Of a DNA stretch of 64,000 bases, positions 14,556 through 39,955 are shown one piece after another. Source of the DNA: Dermatophagoides farinae (Eukaryota > Arthropoda > Arachnida > Sarcoptiformes > Pyroglyphidae). The first letter of the stretch is position 1, and each line of letters opens with the position of its first letter. Location: assembly GCF_024713945.1 (NCBI RefSeq), contig NC_134682.1, forward strand, positions 682,001 to 746,000. Direction: 5' to 3'. Made by a program: the position numbers and the translations under genes. A model generated the notes under the pieces. The model ran no database searches, was not told the origin of the DNA, and saw only the letters and a program-made list of their open reading frames with translations.

Positions 14556-15965
14556 TCAAATATTCAATGTCCCAATAGAAGCCATTTGAAATCCTTTGGC
14601 CACATGTGCTGGATATGTAGCAACAATTTTGATTGGAAAATCCCATGTCATTACTTGTACTTGTAATTGTCTTGGTGCCAATGTTTGTCGGCCATCTTCA
14701 GTTTCTGTACATAAATTAATCGATGTATTTGTTGATTTTTGATTATTATTTTCAATTACAAAACTAAAATGTAAATTCCATTTTAAGGAAATTAAATCAT
14801 TTGCAAATGATGGTGTCAATGTAAATGGTATCGGTAATATCATTGGCGAATGATTCATATTTAAACAACATTCATGAAAACGTGTATGATTTGTAAGATT
14901 AATTTTTGATTTTTTTGCCGTTGTCGATGTCGTCGTCGATGATGATGATGATGAATGAACCAGATAATGTTCAGAAATTTTTTCTTCACTTTGTAATATC
15001 ACTGAATAACGTATACATTTAACTAGACCTTCGGTGAAATCAAACAGGCCGATAATATCTTCACCGAGACGATAAACAGTTTTAAATATGAAAAATTTGG
15101 CCACTCTACCAAACGAACTGGTTATATTGAAATTATGAGGTATACGATGTCCAACAAGATATTCAATACGATGTAATGCAATATCCAATGATGTACCATA
15201 ATCTTTGGATTCATCGTCAAACGTAAGTGAAGTACTATTCGTACTGGTCAAGCTTTTATTATCATCATCATCCATTTCATTCACCGTACCATTCAATGTA
15301 CGTTGATCCGGGTTTGTTGTCGTTGATGATGATGATGGAAATCCATCTATTGTCAATAAACGAATCGGTATTTTCAATAGATAAATTGGTGAACCAATAC
15401 GTTGAGCACCGATACACAGTTTGTAATAATATTTCAATCTATTACTGGAATATGAAGGATTAAGATTCGAAGGCAATGTTTCCGTATAGATAAATGTTTG
15501 ACTTTGTTGTGGTTCTAGCTGTAGATCGCAGAATAAAATTTTTGGTTTCGATGCATAAATAATGATACCACGTTCACCACGGACCAATGATTCATGGAAT
15601 GAAGTATCATTGGATGAATAGGTTTCCAATGCAATTGAATTTCGTTTCGTGTAATTATTTTTCATATAATTTCCATTATGATTGATTAATTTACTATCAA
15701 GATTTTCTTCAATAATTCGCCGACAATCGATCAATGATTCATCCACAGTACAGAAACAATGTAGTTGTACATTGGCCCAACAGATTCTTTCAATGGAATT
15801 ATTATTATCACTAGTATTTTTTTGGCCACCAATCAGACCATTTGGTGTGGAAATATTTTCATTTGTTCGTGGAATATTTTTCAATGTAATTAAACATTGG
15901 ACAGTTTCTTGGACAAAATATACAGGACCACGTAAAAGTTTGGCTTGAATTTCAATCATTTTCAA
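14556..15965 (-). CDS. RGP1: RGP1 homologue, Rab6 GEF partner protein 2
   Basis: Single-exon gene of 469 residues. RGP1 with RIC1 forms the guanine-nucleotide exchange complex for Rab6 at the Golgi, acting in retrograde endosome-to-Golgi transport. Family signatures: MIEIQAKLLRGPVYF at the start, ASKPKILFCDLQLEP near 140, YYKLCIGAQRIGSPIYLLKIPIRLL near 185-210, FFIFKTVYRLGEDIIG near 290, and the C-terminal FPIKIVATYP; each has a clear counterpart in human RGP1 (arrestin-like fold). Ser/Thr-rich and acidic inserts occur near 215-250 and 340-355. A second Met at residue 3 could be the start. It converges with KGD4 (210 bp between stops) and diverges from MNAT1. Confidence 0.93.
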   Translation of the reverse strand: MKMIEIQAKLLRGPVYFVQETVQCLITLKNIPRTNENISTPNGLIGGQKNTSDNNNSIERICWANVQLHCFCTVDESLIDCRRIIEENLDSKLINHNGNYMKNNYTKRNSIALETYSSNDTSFHESLVRGERGIIIYASKPKILFCDLQLEPQQSQTFIYTETLPSNLNPSYSSNRLKYYYKLCIGAQRIGSPIYLLKIPIRLLTIDGFPSSSSTTTNPDQRTLNGTVNEMDDDDNKSLTSTNSTSLTFDDESKDYGTSLDIALHRIEYLVGHRIPHNFNITSSFGRVAKFFIFKTVYRLGEDIIGLFDFTEGLVKCIRYSVILQSEEKISEHYLVHSSSSSSTTTSTTAKKSKINLTNHTRFHECCLNMNHSPMILPIPFTLTPSFANDLISLKWNLHFSFVIENNNQKSTNTSINLCTETEDGRQTLAPRQLQVQVMTWDFPIKIVATYPAHVAKGFQMASIGTLNI

Positions 15966-16243
15966 TTGTTAAATGATGATCAGAATCTAATTAACTTTGA
16001 CATTTGAAAAATTTTTCCATTAGTTCAAATTAAAGATGATCATTATCCACAAAAAAAACTTGTTTACGTTGCTACATCATATAAAATGGGAAAATAAAGA
16101 AACTCGAATTGAATGATACAACCACGGTAAACGAATACATTGTTTATGAACAGCTGATCAGCTTGACAATTTTCGCCGATTTTTTTTTTCGTTGAAGAAT
16201 TTGATTTGATTTAAATTTTTTCATTTTTCTTCCAACAAAAATA
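15966..16243. promoter_or_regulatory. Shared divergent promoter region of RGP1 and MNAT1
   Basis: Only 278 bp separate the start codons of RGP1 (minus) and MNAT1 (plus), so both promoters and 5' UTRs must lie here. No clear TATA box; this is inferred from spacing alone. Confidence 0.5.
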
Positions 16244-17254
16244 ATGGATAAAGAAACAAGATGTCCAAATTGTGGTACAACCAAATATGCCAATGTCAAT
16301 CTACGTATGATGGTAAATGTTTGTGGCCATTCACTGTGTGAATCATGTGTTGAATTGTTGTTCGTCAAAGGAGCGGCTAAATGTCCAACTTGTCAAGTAT
16401 TATTGAAACGTGTTCAATTTCGAATTCAACTTTATGATGATGAAACGGTGGAAAAAGATCTTGAAATTCGTCGTCGTTTAATCAAAGATTTAAGTCTAAA
16501 AGAAGATGATTTTGAAACACTTAGAGAATATAATGATTATCTTGAATTATTTGAAACATTTGTCTATAATTTAGCCAATAATATCGATGTAACGGAAACA
16601 AATCGTCTGATAGAACAATTTAAATCGGATAATGCTGCGAAATTGGCTAAAAGTAGAAATAAAATTTCCAAAGATATGGAACTGATACAACAATTACTTG
16701 AAGAAGAATTAATGGAACAAGGTAATCGTTCAATGATGTCGGTGGATAACGATGATGATATGAATCTTGCTGCGAAAAAAGTAGCACAATATAAAGAAAA
16801 TTTATTGGATGCATTAGTTCATTCGGATATGCCTGCAGAAATAATATTGCGTACACATCAAAAACAAGCAGAAAATGAATTGGCCGCAATCGATGAAATG
16901 GAACAAAAACGACAACAAGACGCATTACGTATGAAACGACAACAAATGAATAAACAAAAAATCATCACATCAACCGGTGTTCGTTTAGGACAGAATGCGA
17001 AAATTGTATTCGATAAAGAATTCAATGAAATTCAAGGTGAACGTTTTGTTTACACGCCAATTAAAATGCCAAATGCTGGTCCACAATGTCCAACACCGGG
17101 AACAATCGAACGGAAACAATATATGCAACATGTCCGAATGGCTGGACCATCAGAATTGGCTGCTGGTTTTTTTCCCATCTATCCATGTCAACGTGCACTA
17201 CAAGAAGCTATTATGGATCTGACATTTATACCACGTACAATGGAATCTAATTAA
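16244..17254 (+). CDS. MNAT1: CDK-activating kinase assembly factor MAT1
   Basis: Single-exon gene of 336 residues. MAT1 bridges CDK7 and cyclin H in the CDK-activating kinase and docks it to TFIIH, linking transcription and the cell cycle. The N-terminal C3HC4 RING finger spans residues 7-50 (CPNC...VNVCGHSLCESCVELLF...CPTC), almost the same spacing as human MAT1. A coiled middle region follows (about 60-235), with LREYNDYLE, FVYNLANNIDV and a Lys/Gln-rich stretch. The C-terminal CDK7/cyclin-H-binding part carries MQHVRMAGPSELAAGFFPIYPCQRALQEA. Stop at 17252. The 3' flank continues directly into the receptor array; a partial copy of this gene's tail is found at about 19360. Confidence 0.95.
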   Translation: MDKETRCPNCGTTKYANVNLRMMVNVCGHSLCESCVELLFVKGAAKCPTCQVLLKRVQFRIQLYDDETVEKDLEIRRRLIKDLSLKEDDFETLREYNDYLELFETFVYNLANNIDVTETNRLIEQFKSDNAAKLAKSRNKISKDMELIQQLLEEELMEQGNRSMMSVDNDDDMNLAAKKVAQYKENLLDALVHSDMPAEIILRTHQKQAENELAAIDEMEQKRQQDALRMKRQQMNKQKIITSTGVRLGQNAKIVFDKEFNEIQGERFVYTPIKMPNAGPQCPTPGTIERKQYMQHVRMAGPSELAAGFFPIYPCQRALQEAIMDLTFIPRTMESN

Positions 17255-17306: not shown

Positions 17307-18886
17307 TTATACAAACAATTTGCTGGAAAGCATTGTAAAACGGCCATAGAAAATGATTAACTAGGTGGTAAACAAAAATAAAAATTAAAAATTTTCCTAG
17401 TTGATTTTTTCATTTATTTACCTTAATGAAAACAAATTTCGTCAATACAGCTGTTGGCCCAATACGCATACCCCATGGTGTTTTATGGTGGATGATTCTT
17501 TCATAAAAATTCATTATCTGTAATTTAAAATTGATCGTACCATTGTCACCATCATTCATTACAATGGCAGTTTTTTGCAATGATGACTGGATTTGATTCA
17601 TTTGTTGATTAAATTTTGATATAATAAACATTAACAATATGAGAACTGAATATTCTACAATCAACATATAGTACAACATGATTAGGAAAAAAAATTGACC
17701 ATTTGTCATTTGATTGATTAAATGCAATGTAAATTGGCTGGATATGAATCCAGTGATCAATGCCAATAGAATTAATTTCGATGCATATTTTTGTATGCAT
17801 TCAATCAATACGATTAAACGTGTATATAATGAAAATGAATGAATCAATCGTGTTTCGATACGATTTTGTTGTACAATTTTAATCAGAGATCTTGATCTGA
17901 TAATGTTTGATTGATAAATAGCTAGACAATTATCGATATCACGGATCAATTGTTTGGATATTTTCATCAACGATATGAAAGTGAAGCAGCCAAGAAATAT
18001 TGGCATATAGAAAATGATGAATAAATTTATACTTATGCAATAAAGATGAAAACAAATTGTTTGACAAATTATCTGCCATATCTGTCTAGTACGTAGGGAT
18101 ATATTATTAAATTTAAAGAATTGAATGCAAAATGAAAGTAAAACTGGAATAAAAAAAATTCGATAAAACATAAAATCAGTCGATTAAAACAATAAAAAAT
18201 AAACACATACGATGACAAGGTTGTGCATATTGATTCAAATAGATGAATGAGTATTTATAATTGGAAAAATTTTTTCTAATTATCAAACGGCCATAATCGA
18301 ATAGAATCAATGTGGATAAGGAATATTCAGAAAATTTTCTCGGTATCGTAAACAGAATCCGGTTATTGTGGTCAATTTCATTCCAACATTGTATCATTGT
18401 ACGAAATTCTAATGATTTTCTACAATTATATGTATAATATGATGTAAACCATAACATTATTATACAAAATATTAACAAAAACGATAAATGTATGATAGCT
18501 ATTTCACTAATATTAACCAAAATGACAAAAACATCACCAACGATGAAACGAATTGATTCTGGATAATCAATAAATTCAAAAGCCAGTGTTGAATAATAAA
18601 ATGTTATAAATACGGTAATAGTAAAACGTATTCTTTCTCTGATTGGAAATGTAAATGCAGAATAATCATTGTCGATTGTTTTCAATGCATAAATGGACAT
18701 ATAATAATCATAGATTGAATCGAATTTTTTTGGTGAATATGAACTTAAAAACATTATCGATGAAAAATAATAAAAACGTTGCATAAAATTATTGAAAGCC
18801 GTGTAGAAAATGGATATAACCGGACGAATTTTCAAATAATTCATATGCATTTCCATCTTGAATTTTTCGATAAAATTTCTTGCCAA
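17307..18886 (-). CDS. Multi-pass membrane protein, chemoreceptor-like, array copy 1
   Basis: Three exons: 18886-18211, 18143-17422 and 17360-17307 (introns 67 and 61 bp; phase 1 then phase 0), about 483 residues. The short last exon is recognised only by comparison with paralogues: it encodes LIIFYGRFTMLSSKLFV. Predicted membrane segments, by eye: RIRFTITVFITFYYSTLAF, HLSFLLIFCIIMLWF, a pair in the start of exon 2, YASKLILLALITGF, FFLIMLYYMLIVEYSVLIL and the exon 2/3 junction region, so about seven. The pattern of seven segments with a phase-0 intron just before the last one recalls arthropod gustatory receptors, but the TYhhhhhQF signature is absent. I therefore call it chemoreceptor-like by inference only. 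Start choice is uncertain; a conserved block begins at MNYLKIRP. Confidence 0.7.
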
Positions 18887-19359
18887 AATTTCCTATTGAC
18901 AATTTAAAAGAGAGTCAAGAAAAAAATGAATCACGAGAAAAAAAAACGGGGATTCCTTCTAGTTAGAACGTGAAAATTGTAATGATTTGTCATATCTTGT
19001 CTTTTCAAAATTTTTCTTCTCAACCCGTTATAGACTTTTATTATTCCAATCATAATCGAAATCGAACCAAAAAAAAAAAAAAAAAATAAAGAGAAAACTT
19101 TTCTTTTAATTTTCTTTTCCATCAAACATAATAATGGATTGAATCGATTGGTCGACCAATCGATAAATTGAGTGGATAATTTATGCTTTCGAAACAAAAA
19201 TTAAGCATTTCTTGATCTTATTATTCTAAATGTTGTTGAAATGATCGATAAAAAATATAAACGCATTAATCATATGAACTAAACAATGTACAACAATGAT
19301 AAAAGTTTTATTTTATATGAAAGAAAAAAAAACAACAACAGATCCGTACACTGCTGGTG
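18887..19359. other. Spacer between array copies 1 and 2, part of duplicated unit
   Basis: No gene. The segment about 18955-19265 is recognisably similar to about 21580-21860: shared words include CCTTCTAGTTAGAA, TTTTTCTTCTCA and GAGCATTTCTTGAT-like stretches. So the upstream flank of copy 1 was duplicated together with the gene. Confidence 0.55.
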
Positions 19360-19596
19360 AAAGAATTCGTTTAGGACAGAATTCAAATTCAAATTAAAGA
19401 ATTCAATGAAATTCAAGGTGAACGTTTGCCAAATGCTTGTCCACAATGTCCAACACCGGGTACAATCGAACGGAAACAATATATGCAACATGTGCGGGTG
19501 GAATTGACTGCTACTGGAGTCTATAAATGTCAACGTGCGCTACAAGGAGCTATTATGGATCTGACATTTATATCACGTACAATGGAATCTAATTAA
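19360..19596 (+). pseudogene. Truncated MNAT1 3'-end fragment
   Basis: Nearly identical to the last part of MNAT1: it shares TTCGTTTAGGACAGAAT, AAAGAATTCAATGAAATTCAAGGTGAACG, CCAACACCGG...ACAATCGAACGGAAACAATATATGCAACATG and the final AATGGAATCTAATTAA stop with its 3' flank. Internal deletions destroy the frame (for example, the segment between GAACGTTT and GCCAAATGC is lost). The 5' two-thirds of the gene is absent. It sits upstream of the copy-2 receptor's 3' end in the same arrangement that MNAT1 has to copy 1, so it was carried along by a segmental duplication. Non-functional. Confidence 0.93.
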
Positions 19597-19652
19597 CATC
19601 TGTGATCTTTGATCAAATTTTTTTTATTTAATTTTTTTTCATCATTATAATT

Positions 19653-21271
19653 TTATGCAAACAATTTGCTGGAAAGCATCGTAAAACGGCCATAGAAAAT
19701 GATTAACTAGATGGTAAAAAATGAAAATAAATGAAAATGAAAAATTTTCCTAATTGATTTTTTTTCATTTATTTACCTTAATGAAAACAAATTTCGTCAA
19801 TACGGCTAATGGTCCGATATGCATACCCCATTGTTTTTTACCACTAATGATTCTTTCATAAAAATTCATTATCTGTAATTTAAAATTGATCCTACCATTG
19901 TCACCATCATTCATTACAATGGCAGTTGTTTGCAATGATGACTGGATTTGATTCAATTGTTGATTAAATTTTGATATAATAAACATTAACAATATGAGAA
20001 CGGAATATTCTACAATCAACATATAGTATAATAAGATTAGGAAAAAAAATTGACCATTGGTCATTTGATTGATTAAATGCAATGTAAATTGGCTGGATAT
20101 GAATCCAGTGATCAATGCCAATAGAATTAATTTCGATGCATATTTTTGTATGCATTCAATCAATACGATTAAACGTGTATATAATGAAAATGAATAAATC
20201 AATCGTGTTTCGATACGATTTTGTTGTACAATTTTATTCGCAGATTTAGATCTAGATCTGATGATGTTCAATTGATAAATAGCTAGACAATTATCAATAG
20301 CACGGATCAATTGTTTGGATATTTTCATCAATGATATGAAAGTGAAGCAGCCAAGAAATATTGGCATATAGAAAATGATGAATAAATTCATACTTATGAA
20401 ATAAAATTGAAAACAAATTGTTCGACAAATTATCTGCCATATCTGTCTAGTACGTATGAATATGCCAAATTTAAAGATTTGCATGTAAAATGCAAATAAA
20501 ACTGTGAAGAAAAACACAAAAAAAATCAGCTGATGATTAAAACAATAAATAAGAAAAAAAATAAAATAAAAACTTACAATGACAAGATTGTGAATATTGA
20601 TTCAAATAGATGAATGAGTATTTATAATTGGAGAAATTTTTTCTAATTATCAAACGGCCATAATCTAATAGAATCAATGTGGATAAAGAATATTCAGAAA
20701 ATTTTCTCGGTATCGTAAACAGAATCCGGTTATTGTTATCAATTTCATTCCAACATTGTATCATTGTACGAAATTCTAATGATTTTCTACAATCATATGT
20801 ATAATATAATGTAAACCATAACATTGTCATACAAAATATTATTAAAAACGATACATGTATGATGGACATTTTGCTAATATCATCCAAAACGATGAAAACA
20901 TCACCAACGATGAAACGAATTGATTCTGGATAATCAATGAATTCAAAAGCCAATGTTGAATAATAAAATGTTATAATTACGGTAATAGTGAAACGTATTC
21001 TTTCTTTGATTGGAAATGTAAATTCATTATAATCATTGTCGATTGTTTTCAATGTATAAATGCACATATAGTAATCATAGATTGAATCGAATTTTTTTGG
21101 CGAATATGAACTTAAAAACATTATCGATGAAAAATAATAAAAACGTTGCATAAAATTATTGAATGCCATGTTGAAAATGGATATAACCGAATGAATTGTC
21201 AAATAATTCATATATATACATTTCCATCTTGAATTTTTTTTTTTTTTTGCAAAAAATTTCGTATCGACCAT
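19653..21271 (-). CDS. Multi-pass membrane protein, chemoreceptor-like, array copy 2
   Basis: Closest paralogue of copy 1; large parts of exon 2 and all of exon 3 are almost identical. Exons: 21271-20578, 20501-19777 and 19706-19653 (introns 76 and 70 bp; phases 1 and 0), about 490 residues. Last exon LIIFYGRFTMLSSKLFA. Differences from copy 1 cluster at the N-terminus (Lys-rich FFAKKKKN) and at scattered residues, with no disabling change seen, so both copies look intact. The high similarity, including flanking DNA and the MNAT1 fragment, marks this as the youngest duplication in the array. Function is inferred only from topology and gene structure. Confidence 0.7.
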
Positions 21272-22190
21272 CTAAAAGAGAGACAACGAAAAAATGAATC
21301 ACGAGTCTGAATGAACCAGTGACTAGATGTACGATATGGATTCAGGAATGAAATAATTATAAGACAAATAATGATGTAGTTTTTTGCTCAAATAAAGAAT
21401 TTTTTTTTTTTTGTTGCTGCGGGTAATAAAATCAATTAGTATATGGTTGACGCAAAAAATATCGATATTTTTCTCACACACACACACACACACACAATAA
21501 TAGCAAAACTTAAAAAAAACCTGAGCCAGTATGGTAATGGAATGAATGTAGAATAGATGAGATAAAAATAACCAAAATTCCTTCTAGTTAGAAAATGGTG
21601 AAAATCACAATGATTAATTTCTTTTCGAAATTTTTCTTCTCAGCCCCCATTTATAGACTCACATAATCGAAATTGAACCAAGAAAAAAAACTTTTTTTCT
21701 CATTTTTTTTCCACATAATTAAACCCAATAAACGATTGACTCATTTATATCGGCCATTAATTGAGTCGATAAAATTTATGTTTTCAAAACCAAAAAAAAA
21801 AAAAATTGAGCATTTCTTGATTTTTTTTTTGCTGTTGAAACAATCGATATATAAGAACCAAACAATGTACAACTTTTGCTGGTGAAAGAATTTTTTTTTC
21901 TTTTCATGTACAAAGACAGAAAAATTCAAATTCAAATTAAGTAGAAAAACTAAAAATTTAAATTTAGTTTTACAATGAATGTGAAATGGTATGATGAATG
22001 TTTAAAAAAAACAACCCATTATGATGAAAAAAAATGACAAATGATGATTGACTTTTTTTTCCTACCCTTTGTGTTTTTTTTGTCGGAAAATTTCCATCGA
22101 TTTCCCAAAAAGTTTTTCGTTTTCATGGCGGTACGTTTATCGATTTTTTTTTTGGCCATGTTTTTTTTGGTTGATGTCGTTTGTTAATTA
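21272..22190. other. Spacer between array copies 2 and 3, with duplicated-flank remnants
   Basis: No gene. It has a (CA)n run near 21476-21496. The part 21580-21860 is a diverged copy of the flank at 18955-19265. At about 21876-21940 there is a shorter match to the left edge of the MNAT1 fragment (TTTGCTGGTGAAAGAA...ATTCAAATTCAAATTAA), suggesting a third, older copy of the same duplication boundary. Confidence 0.5.
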
Positions 22191-23677
22191 TTAATGACCA
22201 AATAATTTCTGCCAAAGCATTGTCACACGAGCATAATAGATGATAATCTGTACATATCCGACATATTTATTTATTTATAAATGTATGAATTGAAAATTGA
22301 ATCAAAAAAAAAACTTACTTTGACGAAAATAATTTTATTCAACACCGTAATTGGTCCGATTTTTATGCCAAACGTTTTCAGATTGACCAAATAATAATAG
22401 ATGATCATCATTTTGATTTTAAAACGATTACTGGATTTTTGATTCAATGCAATAACAGTACGTCTAATGTCGTATTGTATGGAATTTAAACGATAATTGT
22501 ATGTAGAAATCATGTATGATAATAAAAACATGACAACATGTTCAAGAAACAATATGTAATATAGCGAAATCCAGATGATAATATTATCATTTTTCAGTTC
22601 ATTTATCAAATGAATTGTAAATTGACTTGTAATATAAGTGAAAAATATGGCCCATAACATCATACGTGATGCATATGATTCAATCTGTTCAGTAGAAATG
22701 ATTATACGGGTATATACATGAAACAATTTTAACAATCGTAATTGGATAAAAATATTTGATTGTTTAAGAATTTTTTCTGTTGCCATTTCATTTGATTGAT
22801 ATTTCCTGAGCAATGTGTCAATTTGTTTACGAATATTTTTTATTGTTTTCAATCCAAGCCATAGAATATATGCACTATATGTTAATGTTGAATAATAAAA
22901 TGAAAATAAAAAATTCAAAACAATGCCCATCATTTGTATGGATATTGCACGTATTAAAATTTGCCATAATGGTCGTGTATGGATAAAATCTTCTAATCGA
23001 ATGAAATGAATGAATAAATTGATGATAACTGATTGAAATGAAACGAAACGAAAAAAGACATTGTTATTGTGAAAAAAAAACAGAAACAAAAACTTACAAT
23101 GAAAAATTTGTGTAATACAAAACAAACGATTGGAAAATTGTTTAAAATTTCTATTACTATCTGGAAGTATTTGATGTATGAAATTGAATAAAAGTATCGA
23201 TGATTTTGTTAATTTTTTATATTTTTTTTCAAAATTTGGATCATCATCACGTTCATTAATATAAATTATCGTTGTACGATATGCATTCGATCGTTTTGTA
23301 TGAAATAAATCATAAACAAGTAACCAACCGATTGTTAATGCAGACCAAGCAAACAGGGCAGAATTATGTATGAGATTGTCTGATTCACCAATTATGATGA
23401 TGGTCAAATCGCCCAATAAAAAACGTTCAGTATCTGTATAATGGATTATATTCATACTGAATGTCATATAATAGATTGCAATGATGGTGGTGAGAAAAAA
23501 ACGAAATTGTTCCATTCGTGGTAATGATAACATCAAACATTTTTTATAATCAAGCAACAGAAAATGTGTATAGAAATCAAGAATGGATGGATAATATTTT
23601 GGTGAATATGAACTTAGATAGAAACCAGATAGAATATTGTGAATATAATGCAGTGTTTGATCAATGTTTTCATTCAT
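22191..23677 (-). CDS. Multi-pass membrane protein, chemoreceptor-like, array copy 3
   Basis: Exons: 23677-23098, 23028-22319 and 22247-22191 (introns 69 and 71 bp; same phases 1 and 0), about 448 residues. Reading straight through the first intron gives a false longer frame, because that intron has no stop in frame. Shared family features: LSSYSPKYYPSILDFYTHF near the N-terminus, FIHTRPLWQILIRA at the start of the second half, YASRMMLWAIFFTYITSQFTIHLINE, TFGIKIGPITVLNKIIFVK and the last exon IIIYYARVTMLWQKLFGH. Well diverged from copies 1 and 2 but collinear over its length. Role inferred as for copy 1. Confidence 0.68.
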
Positions 23678-24209
23678 TTTTTTTTATCAATGTTTTGTAA
23701 TGAAATCTCTGTGAAATGAAAATTATTTATCAACGATGATGATGATTTTGAAATTCTTTTCCCTTTTGTCATTCGTTATGGAACATTTGTTTTTTTGTTG
23801 TTGTTGTTGTTGTTTACGTTTGGTTTTGTTTGAGTTGGTTGCATTCATGTTCAGTGATGAATAAAAAATAAAGTTTTATGGAAAGTAAAAATTTTCTTCA
23901 CCATTTTTTTTTCATTGTGAATTCCCAATTTATGTAATATTTTTTTTGTATCTAATAATTGTATTGATTTTATGGCCAAAAAGTTTTTCTTTTTCGTTTA
24001 ATTTTAGCAGAAAAACCAATAATTTCATCATCATTATCGAAAAAAAAAATTCAACTCATGATGAATGAAAATAAAAAGTCAAAGTTCAATTTAATTTGAA
24101 TAATTTTTCTAGATGAAGTTTTTTTTATTCAAAATAGTCAATTTCGATAATAATCGATCGATATATAGCATGATGATGATGATGATGAGAAAATTTTCAT
24201 TTTTTTATT
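23678..24209. other. Spacer between array copies 3 and 4
   Basis: AT-rich spacer with (TTG)n near 23791-23815 and (GAT)n near 24172-24188. No gene or MNAT1 remnant seen. Confidence 0.5.
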
Positions 24210-25784
24210 TTATTTTGTCAATTTAAACGCCAACATTGTGAAACGTGCATACAGTATGATGAGCTATTTTTTTTTTTTTTTTTTTTTTTTTGATGGATAA
24301 ATCAAATTAAAAAAACAAAAAAAAAATGATTAATGAACACTTAACTTACACGAAAAAAAACCCATGTTGTCAACACTGTAATTGAACCAATTCTTATACC
24401 CCATGGTTTATTGCTAATCATACGTTCATATGTAGTGGCCATATAGAAACGAAAATGAAATGTGGCCATCCTGTTTGTATGATTTATTGTTTGCTGTATT
24501 GAAAAACGGATTGAATTGATTTTTGTATTCACTTTGGATACAAAATATGTAAACAATATCATTACAGAATAATCCAAAAATAGACAATAATAAAGCCAAA
24601 CTTTTACAATATATTTTTCATTATGAAAATGTTCATTATAAACAATAATCATTTCACTTGCTAAAAATGTAGTGAATAATGCCGATAATATTAATCCGGA
24701 TGCATAATTTTGTAAATCTTCATTGATTATAATCAATCGTACATACATGTTGAATAATGTTATTAATTTTCGTTCAATTATTGGTAATAATTGTAAACGT
24801 TTTATTGATTCAATTGTTTCATCATTGCATTCATCATTGGTCAATAGTCGTAATCGTCTTGTCCACATGATAATATTGAAACGTAATTGTTTGATGAAAT
24901 TAAATGCCAACATTATAAACTGGCCACCAATCAATAATGGAAATTGAATGAATGTATAAGTGAAATTCAATAGGCTACAAATCAATTGCATTGTAATGGT
25001 ACGCAAAATAATTTGCCATAATGGATGTGTATAATAGAATTGTTGCCAATCAACAAGATGTGCAACTATATTTAAAAACACTAAAGCCATGAATAAATGT
25101 GATTAAAATTCAACCAAAAAAAAAAAAAAAAGATTTAACCACAAAAAAACGATTCTTACGATAAAACGCGGCATTATAGCTATAGAAACGATCAATAGAT
25201 TGTTTATGTTCAGCCACACGTATTGGTATTTTTTTATTTATATAATCAAGAAACATGATTGTCACATTTGAGTATACAGAATTTGGCCATTTTCTACGAA
25301 ATTTATCCACAGTTTTTTCATTCGTTTCAATTGCTGTTTCATCATCATATAAATAAAGAATAATCGTACGAAATGCTAATGATCGATTTGTATTCATCGA
25401 TGAATAAACAATAAATGTCACTGATGCTATTGTAAATGCAAGCATTATGCACAAAATTTTCGGTATTGTACTTGTTTGATCGCTAAAAAATAATACCAAA
25501 TCACCAGCTATGAATCTAATTATGTCCGGATAATAATTGATTAAATCAAAAATGATGGCTACATAATAAAATACTACAATGAATGATAAAAAAAATTGAA
25601 ATTTTTCCTTCACTGGCAACGAATTGATTAACAAACATTCTGTTGAATCTAGTAATAAAAATTTACAATAATGATCAAATATTGAACCACCAGAATATGA
25701 AGTTAAATAAAACTTTGATAAAATGTAATAGAATCGATGCAAAAAACGATCCAAATGAAATTGTATGATTGATTTATCGCACAT
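24210..25784 (-). CDS. Multi-pass membrane protein, chemoreceptor-like, array copy 4
   Basis: Exons: 25784-25160, 25080-24350 and 24263-24210 (introns 79 and 86 bp; phases 1 and 0), about 469 residues. I chose the Met at 25784 (MCDKSIIQFHLDRF) because it matches the N-termini of copies 3 and 5; an upstream Met at 25835 is in frame. Family motifs: FYLTSYSGGSIFDHYCKF, FYYTHPLWQIILRT, YASGLILSALFTTFLASEM, YERMISNKPWGIRIGSITVLTTWVFF (in two pieces around the loop) and the last exon LIILYARFTMLAFKLTK. The frame is intact. Role inferred as for copy 1. Confidence 0.66.
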
Positions 25785-25835
25785 GATGATTCTTTCATAT
25801 ATATACACACACATGAAACGGAAATGGAGAATCAC

Positions 25836-26216
25836 TTGAAGAATTGTTGGACGACCGTTACAATGTCCAAACTTTTAGCAAATGATCCTCGGGATAGTGT
25901 TGATTCTTATCATTTTTAACTTTTTTTTTAAATTTTTTTTTATTATTTCTATAATCATATCGATTTCAATGAAAAACGGAAAAAACAAAAGTTTAATAAT
26001 GAATGAATGAATGAATGAATGAATGAATGAATGAATGTTAAATCAATATTAGCATTTTAATTTATTTCTCGTTTCTCGCATATCGATCAATTTAGTTAAG
26101 CCACTCGTTCGTTTGTTGTTGTTGTTTTTTTGCATAATAAATGAGTTTAAAAGACGAAAACAAAAAAATTAGTCTGCGAGAAATTATTACATTCCATCAT
26201 AATCATTTCGCCACAT
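25836..26216. other. Spacer between array copies 4 and 5, (GAAT)n microsatellite
   Basis: Contains a tetranucleotide run (GAAT)n, about nine units, at 25999-26037. No gene. Confidence 0.6.
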
Positions 26217-27774
26217 TCATTGAAACAATTTATTCGATAACATTGTGAAACGACAATAGATAATGATGAGCTAAAAAATTTTTCCGGAAATAATTCAATT
26301 ATAGAATAAAATACGGATAAACAAAAAAAAAAAAAACAAAAAAAAACCTTTACCTTTACAAAAACGAACCGTGTCAACACTGAAAATGGACCAATTTTCA
26401 TCCCAAATGGTTTTCTACTAACCATACGTTCATGGATGAACATTAAATGAAATTTAAAACGATCATTCGACAATGGATTTGTATGCCATATTGTTGCTTG
26501 CAGAACATATCTCAATGAATCAAGTTTTGCATTGAATTTCGCTATCCAATATGTTAATATTAACATATTTGAATAATTTAGAATTAGAAAATAATAAAAC
26601 AAACAACGTAATAGATATTGATCAGCACGTATTTGTTGTAAACAATTCCAAATAAATTGATTGGTTACAAATGATATTATTGTTGATAGAATAATTAGTG
26701 GCGAAAAATATGGTATAATTTGTTCGGAAAAAATATTCAATCGCACATACATCATATATCTATGCAGGATAAGTTTTTCAATCAATATGTTCAATTTAAC
26801 TGTCTGATTGTATTTGTGTTTACAATTCGAAGAAATCATTTGAATTTTGTTTATTGAATCCAAAAAATCTCGCCGTAACAAATTAATCGAACGTATACCA
26901 TTCATAGTGATAAAATAGCCAATCATTATTGGACAATAGGCAAATATCAGTAGGAAATCGATCGATATGCATGTAATTTGAAAGCCAAAAATACGTCCTA
27001 TAATTTGCCATAATGGTCGTTCATATATGAATTTGTCCATTTTGATCAGATGAGCTAAACAATTGACTATGACTTGTTTGGAAATGAAATCAGAATCAGA
27101 ATTAACCAATTTTTTTTCTCATTTATTGAATACTTACAATGAAAAAATCTGGCCAGACAATAAAATTTATTGAATGATGATTTAAATTCTGTGATTTTCG
27201 GATCAAATCTTCGTCGCAAATAATTGAGAAGAATGATCGTAGATCTGGATAATTGTTTTTTATTCATTCTAATGGATCTATGTAAAACATAATGATTTCT
27301 ATCAAATTCACGTAAATACATAATATATGTACGATATGCTTTCGATTCGTTTGTATTGAATGATTGATAAATAGTGAAACCAACGGTAAGAAATGCAAAC
27401 GTCGTGAACAATGAATACGTACGTCGTAATGATGAACCATATTTAACTTCAGTAATTAAACTAAAATCACCAATCAAAAATTCAAATGTATCACCATAAT
27501 GGATGAAATTATAGCCAGAAGTTGCATAATAAAATGAAATCAATATTAATAATGAAAAACAAATACGTTCCTGATAGGGTATTGCCCATATTAGCCATTT
27601 TTTGTTGGAACGATTATTATTATTATTATTATTATTGTTGTTGTCCTGTAATAGACAAAAATTGGTATGAAAATCAAAAATCGAACCATGTATATTGGGT
27701 GAAAAAGATTTCAAATAAAATGGCGATAATTGACAATAAATCCGGTATAGATAATTTTCCATTGATTCAGACAT
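26217..27774 (-). CDS. Multi-pass membrane protein, chemoreceptor-like, array copy 5
   Basis: Exons: 27774-27138, 27072-26354 and 26270-26217 (introns 65 and 83 bp; phases 1 and 0), about 469 residues. Starts MSESMENYLYRIYCQLSPFYLKSFSPN; then a poly-Asn run of ten in the first loop (a translated microsatellite); then FIYERPLWQIIGRI, MVSRKPFGMKIGPFSVLTRFVFVK and the last exon LIIIYCRFTMLSNKLFQ. Distal, most diverged member of the array, farthest from MNAT1. Same topology and splice phases as the others, which supports a common ancestor. Function inferred only. Confidence 0.68.
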
Positions 27775-39819: not shown

Positions 39820-39955
39820 GCCGGTGTATTTCAATTGGTTAGAATGTCCGGCTTTTATTTCTGTACAAAAGTGGGTGTTGGTGTTTAAATTAACACTATA
39901 ATAGTTACAGTAACCGGAAACCGGAAGGTTTTGGGTTCGAGTCCCAACATCGGCG
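39820..39955 (+). tRNA. tRNA-like sequence, candidate tRNA-Lys(UUU) with a ~62-nt intron, or pseudogene
   Basis: Acceptor stem GCCGGTG (39820-39826) pairs over 7 bp with CATCGGC (39948-39954), with G as discriminator. Anticodon stem TCCGG (39847-39851) pairs with CCGGA (39921-39925). The T arm is TTGGG-TTCGAGT-CCCAA. A five-base variable region AGGTT sits between. The D arm is weak, with three pairs. The anticodon loop begins CTTTTA, giving anticodon TTT. About 62 extra bases then lie where tRNA introns occur (after position 37). A T run follows at once (39956-39964), as for Pol III termination. A Lys(UUU) tRNA with an intron is unusual, so a pseudogene or tRNA-derived repeat is possible. Confidence 0.5.

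Follow-up and report, generated by a model that had tools for sequence, protein, structure and literature searches.

A tandem array of genes in the dust mite Dermatophagoides farinae that probably belongs to a divergent branch of the gustatory receptor-like superfamily

The closest described counterparts of the genes reported here are the gustatory receptors (GRs) of arthropods, which together with the odorant receptors (ORs) of insects are placed in a superfamily of seven-transmembrane ion channels (7TMICs). An accepted mark of GR genes, general though not universal, is a phase-0 intron just ahead of the exon that encodes the seventh transmembrane segment (TM7) (PMC9998090; this and the other papers are cited from excerpts of their text). 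The TM7 motif TYhhhhhQF (h, hydrophobic), in its broad animal form (T/S)Yhhhhh(Q/K/E)(F/L/M), is held to be diagnostic but not definitive, and in Orco its TY residues lie at the subunit interface whereas its last residue forms part of the gate (PMC7746228). Even Grl36a and Grl43a, cryptic proteins of Drosophila that lie beyond the reach of ordinary sequence search, keep the TM7-preceding phase-0 intron together with a variant TM7 motif (PMC9998090). Here we describe five tandem genes in a window of 64,000 nucleotides (nt) of the genome of the dust mite Dermatophagoides farinae (contig NC_134682.1, positions 682,001 to 746,000; the window is the whole stretch of DNA that was analysed). The assembly also carries group-5 allergen genes (PF11642, best E=2.6e-53), a family typical of mites. 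Sequence comparisons lead us to regard the five genes as probable members of a highly divergent branch of the GR-like 7TMIC superfamily that has expanded in mites.

Published GR repertoires of mites comprise 689 GRs in Tetranychus (PMC6275457), four in D. pteronyssinus that were annotated by KEGG number (PMC12105342), one that was picked up by keyword in a Tyrophagus transcriptome (PMC6065420) and, in Sarcoptes, one protein with a gustatory-receptor-like name among 13 chemoreception candidates (PMC4930577). Acari are reported, in the excerpted text of PMC6275457, to be without ORs. In full-text literature searches we found, among the papers listed, no title or abstract describing the present gene family in dust mites, with subscription papers and supplements mostly outside that coverage, so that an earlier report is possible.

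The five genes all lie on the minus strand at window positions 17307-27774, and GT-AG splice models divide each of them into three exons separated by introns of 61-86 nt, giving proteins of 448-473 amino acids (aa):

17307..18856, minus strand: g1, 473 aa, splice model with exons 18856-18211, 18143-17422 and 17360-17307
19653..21211, minus strand: g2, 470 aa, splice model with exons 21211-20578, 20501-19777 and 19706-19653
22191..23677, minus strand: g3, 448 aa, splice model with exons 23677-23098, 23028-22319 and 22247-22191
24210..25784, minus strand: g4, 469 aa, exons 25784-25160, 25080-24350 and 24263-24210, with a possible upstream ATG at 25814
26217..27774, minus strand: g5, 469 aa, exons 27774-27138, 27072-26354 and 26270-26217, with a second in-frame ATG at 27762

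An earlier note on this DNA had proposed a shared strand, three exons, intron phases of 1 and then 0, and a last exon of 18-19 codons; all of these hold in the five splice models (5/5), the codon count including the stop (54 nt in four genes, 57 nt in g3). The sequence motifs named there proved looser. In particular, the TRPLWQI-like motif is present in all five genes but exact in g3 only (TRQIWQI in g1 and g2, THPLWQI in g4, ERPLWQI in g5), and the motif ahead of the second intron generally ends in VLT but reads VLN in g3. Pairwise protein identity is 88% between g1 and g2 and 31-34% in the remaining nine pairs. (Note that intron 1 of g3, at window positions 23029-23097, is 69 nt long, a multiple of three, and stop-free; exon 1, this intron and exon 2 form a single open frame of 470 aa, which a finder of open reading frames (ORFs) would call as a gene.)

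When the genome was searched with g5, g4 or a hand-written consensus as query, each query gave an identical set of 14 loci in four places, referred to below as family A:

window 17307-27774, minus strand: five loci (g1-g5)
C6:2645537-2658144, plus strand: six loci
C6:3492057-3497556, minus strand: two loci
C7:992279-993931, minus strand: one locus, start uncertain

Because each of the three queries recovers the same 14 loci, 13 of which align over their full length, the array is not a product of chance. The earlier note, describing a five-gene array, had thus covered 5 of the 14 family A loci and none of the related family described below. An extra weak match at C6:1310668 (E=0.30, in a search to E=1) was excluded from the count. 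The 13 loci that were modelled and aligned over their full length include p7 and p8, whose models were built by hand; the locus omitted, p10 (C6:2655570-2656030), carries extra sequence with stops within exon 2, the end of which persists downstream together with the last exon. The aligned members share a C-terminal signature of roughly YER, K, GhxIGxhxVLTxxhFxK, the intron, and hhhhYxRFTxLSxKL, and in the last exon an Arg at position +7 and a Lys at position +14 are each found in 13/13.

A second family was reached through a weak genome match to the GR domain 7tm_7 (PF08395; E=0.077, below the cut-off and fourth of seven at E<=10), which led to the ORF L058. A genome search with L058 gave 70 matches at E<=0.1, of which 41 extend to query position 452 or beyond (weakest E=0.0011). 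Taking these 41 as separate C-terminal places of family B, a count that is a lower bound, families A and B together amount to at least 55 loci in the genome. Twelve family B loci were retrieved (L062-L073, L062 being L058 itself); L069, a near copy of L065, and L072, which is truncated, were left unused, leaving 10. The last exon of family B is tiny and follows the pattern hhhhYhGhhhFhL, with phase 0 imposed on the preceding intron during modelling, so that the phase there is a fit and not an independent finding. For the intron in TM3 the phase was not imposed, and in six of nine members it was modelled as a phase-1 intron matching intron 1 of family A in place and phase; no acceptable model was obtained for the other three, and B1 lacks an intron in TM3.

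Profiles of the C-terminal halves of family A (13 sequences) and family B (10 sequences) aligned with a probability of 91% (E=1.1e-6, 222 columns). The score was 52.6, whereas 200 block shuffles averaged 15.1 and did not exceed 29.9, and B reversed scored 19.7. Ungapped scoring of A against B around the last intron likewise gave 19.6, and none of 3,000 column shuffles scored above 4.8. In a 17-sequence alignment of both families the single invariant column is the Tyr of the last exon; in the fuller family A set, p13 carries Phe in this column. As judged from these alignments, family B is related to family A, and the two have the same layout. The earlier note's estimate of about seven membrane segments is borne out by hydropathy, which gave seven, at both thresholds, for the 13-member alignment of family A and for a 6-member alignment of family B. 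In family A the net charge of the loops (K+R minus D+E) adds up to about +16.8 for those on the N-terminal side, while those on the opposite side sum to 0.0, and loop charges thus lean towards an intracellular N-terminus.

The position of the last intron can be compared with that in L055 (C6:143000-149000), a GR of the D. farinae genome that matches 7tm_7 at E=1.6e-7 and structures of the Drosophila sugar receptor Gr64a at E=3.8e-5. L055 has two 3′ introns and the TM7 motif SYFLIVADF, and is the sole GR-like gene found in the genome that matches a solved insect GR. Its last intron, in phase 0, separates FVITNASISN from TIAAVASYFLIVADF, with which the last exon starts and in which the SY that belongs to the GR motif falls at +7/+8. 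The phase-0 intron ahead of the family A TM7 exon (phase 0 in 5/5 window genes) falls at the residue that matches this one. Upstream of the intron, a Gly at -17 and a Thr at -7 are found in L055, in 9/9 and 9/9 members of family B, and in 13/13 and 11/13 members of family A. Downstream of it, RF occupies +7/+8 in family A (11/13) and, after a further five residues, is followed by K and by L or F. Set against the broad animal motif, family A has the K (13/13) and the following L/F (13/13), with F in place of Y (11/13) and R in place of T/S (13/13). The earlier note's statement that TYhhhhhQF is absent therefore stands for the strict form, which is missing from 13/13 aligned members, but not for the last two positions of the broad form. 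On this sequence evidence we take the last exon to correspond to the TM7 exon of GRs, its motif changed to RFTMLSxKL. The GR-like layout suggested in the earlier note is upheld by the seven segments and by a phase-0 intron at the GR position, whereas its view that the last exon simply differs from that of GRs is not; indeed, since the exon occupies the position of the GR TM7 exon, what had been a reason for doubt becomes support for GR kinship.

To score this correspondence we employed an anchored test in which positions -24 to +14 around the last intron were scored without gaps on L055, with 20,000 shuffled versions of the L055 segment as controls, and across 259 placements. For family B, represented by 9 of its 10 members (in the remaining one, B10, the last exon is not identifiable), 0/20,000 shuffles were as good and the true register was the best of the 259 (16.1, next -4.3); for family A, 53/20,000 shuffles were as good and the true register ranked second. 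Because the shuffles ignore the order of hydrophobic residues, more weight falls on the family B result and its register control, and family A leans partly on its kinship with B. We think it probable that family A belongs with the GR-like proteins because of the residue-matched phase-0 intron, the ungapped similarity to L055 (clear for B, weaker for A) and the kinship of the two families.

Several observations weigh against this placement. In the anchored test, one wrong placement of family A on L055 outscores the true register (7.4 vs 2.5), the last exon alone is not significant against L055 (2288/20,000 for A, 1015/20,000 for B), and the shuffles, as noted, do not preserve hydrophobic order. 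L055 is one GR, and three other GR-like places of the genome, L056, L059 and L061, run into TM7 without this intron. The density of K+R per residue contrasts only weakly between the two loop sides in family A (0.134 vs 0.106), less clearly than in family B (0.164 vs 0.096). A Pfam scan of 6 A and 7 B proteins gave no credible match (best chance E 0.037 or worse), the curated cut-off of 7tm_7 being reached by 0/6 and 0/7, in a scan that scored a plain GR of the same genome at 4.7e-8. Comparison by hhalign of the A and B profiles with a set of five GR-like sequences from the genome (L056 in three tandem copies, and one protein each from L059 and L061, all lacking the TM7-preceding intron) gave E of 0.46 and 0.24, which is not significant. 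Sequence searches of the Protein Data Bank (PDB) with A (5 sequences) and with A and B (17/23 of the C-terminal halves) found no GR or OR chain at E<=10. AlphaFold models had low mean confidence (pLDDT), 62.4 for model 1 (exon 2 of g5 with four relatives) and 53.6 for model 2 (g3 read through its open intron 1, with 23 intron-coded residues inside TM3 and TM7b missing, which makes its N-terminal half poor), and Foldseek returned nothing at E<=0.001 for either.

Other structural comparisons were mixed, and the fold comparison with GRs and ORs, whose packing has a long TM4-6 and a TM7 divided into 7a and 7b, is not counted as evidence of membership. With VIA-align, model 1 had the GR entries 8vc2, 8x82 and 8uvu at ranks 13, 24 and 28 among the best 50; these were, among the matches listed, the only ones with at least 190 aligned residues at a root-mean-square deviation (rmsd) below 4.5, with Z within the background for helical bundles. 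No GR was among the best 50 matches listed for model 1 with Foldseek or for model 2 with VIA-align. Foldseek placed Gr43a at ranks 5 and 29 for model 2 (E 1.6 and 2.8), with query TM-scores of only 0.16-0.17. The trehalose-receptor family PF06151 had no genome match at E<=10, which is uninformative as no control matched either. As none of the scanned proteins reaches the 7tm_7 cut-off, families A and B are not filed under PF08395, and because the family A proteins scanned have no credible Pfam match, domain-based annotation is unlikely to name the genes of this family.

Beside arthropod GRs (7tm_7, including L055), family A shares the seven segments, the phase-0 intron before the TM7 exon, the Gly at -17, the Thr at -7 and an arrangement in tandem arrays, and differs from them in its lack of a credible Pfam match or profile link, in having RFTMLSxKL for TYhhhhhQF and in an added phase-1 intron in TM3. 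Membership of the Drosophila Grls, which have another variant motif, is backed by structures (PMC9998090), whereas the models obtained here are too poor for this; and here there are at least 55 loci, counting family B. With insect ORs (7tm_6, PF02949) the likeness is one of superfamily architecture as described in the literature, and 7tm_6 matches no member of A or B at E<=10.

Does this resemblance reflect common descent? The absence of a credible Pfam, PDB-sequence, significant GR-profile or convincing fold match fits an unrelated, mite-specific seven-segment family that came to resemble GRs by convergence, which we nonetheless think improbable in view of the residue-matched intron, the ungapped similarity to L055 and the tie between A and B. 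Seven segments are also found in G-protein-coupled receptors (GPCRs) and ORs. Membership of either group is unsupported and scarcely credible, as no such Pfam family was matched by the 6 A and 7 B proteins scanned and the loop charges lean towards an inside N-terminus; a genome search with 7tm_6 at E<=10 found two places, none in A or B. (One of these, C4:4563725-4564405 on the minus strand, is an ORF of 300 aa with E=5.2e-4, below the cut-off.)

If the genes are superfamily members, they might have a non-chemosensory role, for example in development or neuronal housekeeping, and for many superfamily members roles and channel activity are indeed unknown, according to the excerpted text of PMC9998090. 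Many divergent tandem loci are, on the other hand, more typical of chemoreceptor than of housekeeping genes. With 14 divergent loci in four places, including tandem runs of five and six, we judge a role outside chemosensation unlikely. That the loci are decaying copies and not working genes would suit p10 (1/14 loci), with its stop-bearing exon 2; for the array as a whole this is very improbable, given the open frames and splice signals of all five window genes, the motifs kept among members only about 30% identical, and the ratio of nonsynonymous to synonymous divergence between g1 and g2 (dN 0.059, dS 0.111, ratio about 0.53).

As divergent GR-like channels, the family A proteins would have their N-terminus inside the cell. 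As in insect ORs and GRs (PMC9998090, PMC7746228), four subunits would be joined by the cytosolic ends of TM4-6 and by TM7a, with TM7b lining the pore. A chemical bound in the membrane part would open the pore and depolarize a chemosensory neuron, and copies arising by local tandem duplication would have diverged to detect different chemicals. If the geometry of Orco holds (PMC7746228), the invariant Arg would be found where subunits meet, with the Lys next to the gate. We also raise, as a doubtful possibility, a broader proposal: that families A and B, which have at least 55 loci, make up the main chemoreceptor repertoire of dust mites, missed because it lies below detection by domain profiles, and that the pore of family A is changed. 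Its TM7b carries an Arg at the T/S position and a Lys at the Q position (13/13), which might affect how subunits pair, or even which ions pass, as compared with GRs that conduct cations.

Local duplication is evident within the array, the 88% identical g1 and g2 being recent copies. The duplication unit is about 2.35 kb, marked by direct repeats that are 93-94% identical at a spacing of 2342-2360. Because a relic of the MAT1 3′ end sits between g1 and g2, the unit extended into the adjoining gene. Neighbouring features of the window are as follows:

14556-15968, minus strand: gene for an Rgp1 protein (E=3.7e-37)
16205-17254, plus strand: MAT1 (CDK-activating kinase assembly factor; E=2e-39), source of the relic
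19427..19607, plus strand: MAT1 3′-end relic, brought along by the g1/g2 duplication
39820-39955, plus strand: Rfam tRNA match over 136 bases (E=6.5e-8), unreported by ARAGORN, which may contain an intron

If a single dust mite genome holds 55 or more GR-like loci, the picture of few GRs in dust mites and their kin would change, which suggests that the chemical senses of dust mites have been under-counted. Such loci would supply targets for work on attraction, aggregation and repellency in allergenic mites. They would also show that a large part of a repertoire can escape searches guided by 7tm_7 or by TYhhhhhQF, and that the TM7 intron, together with its flanking residues, can find what those searches miss.

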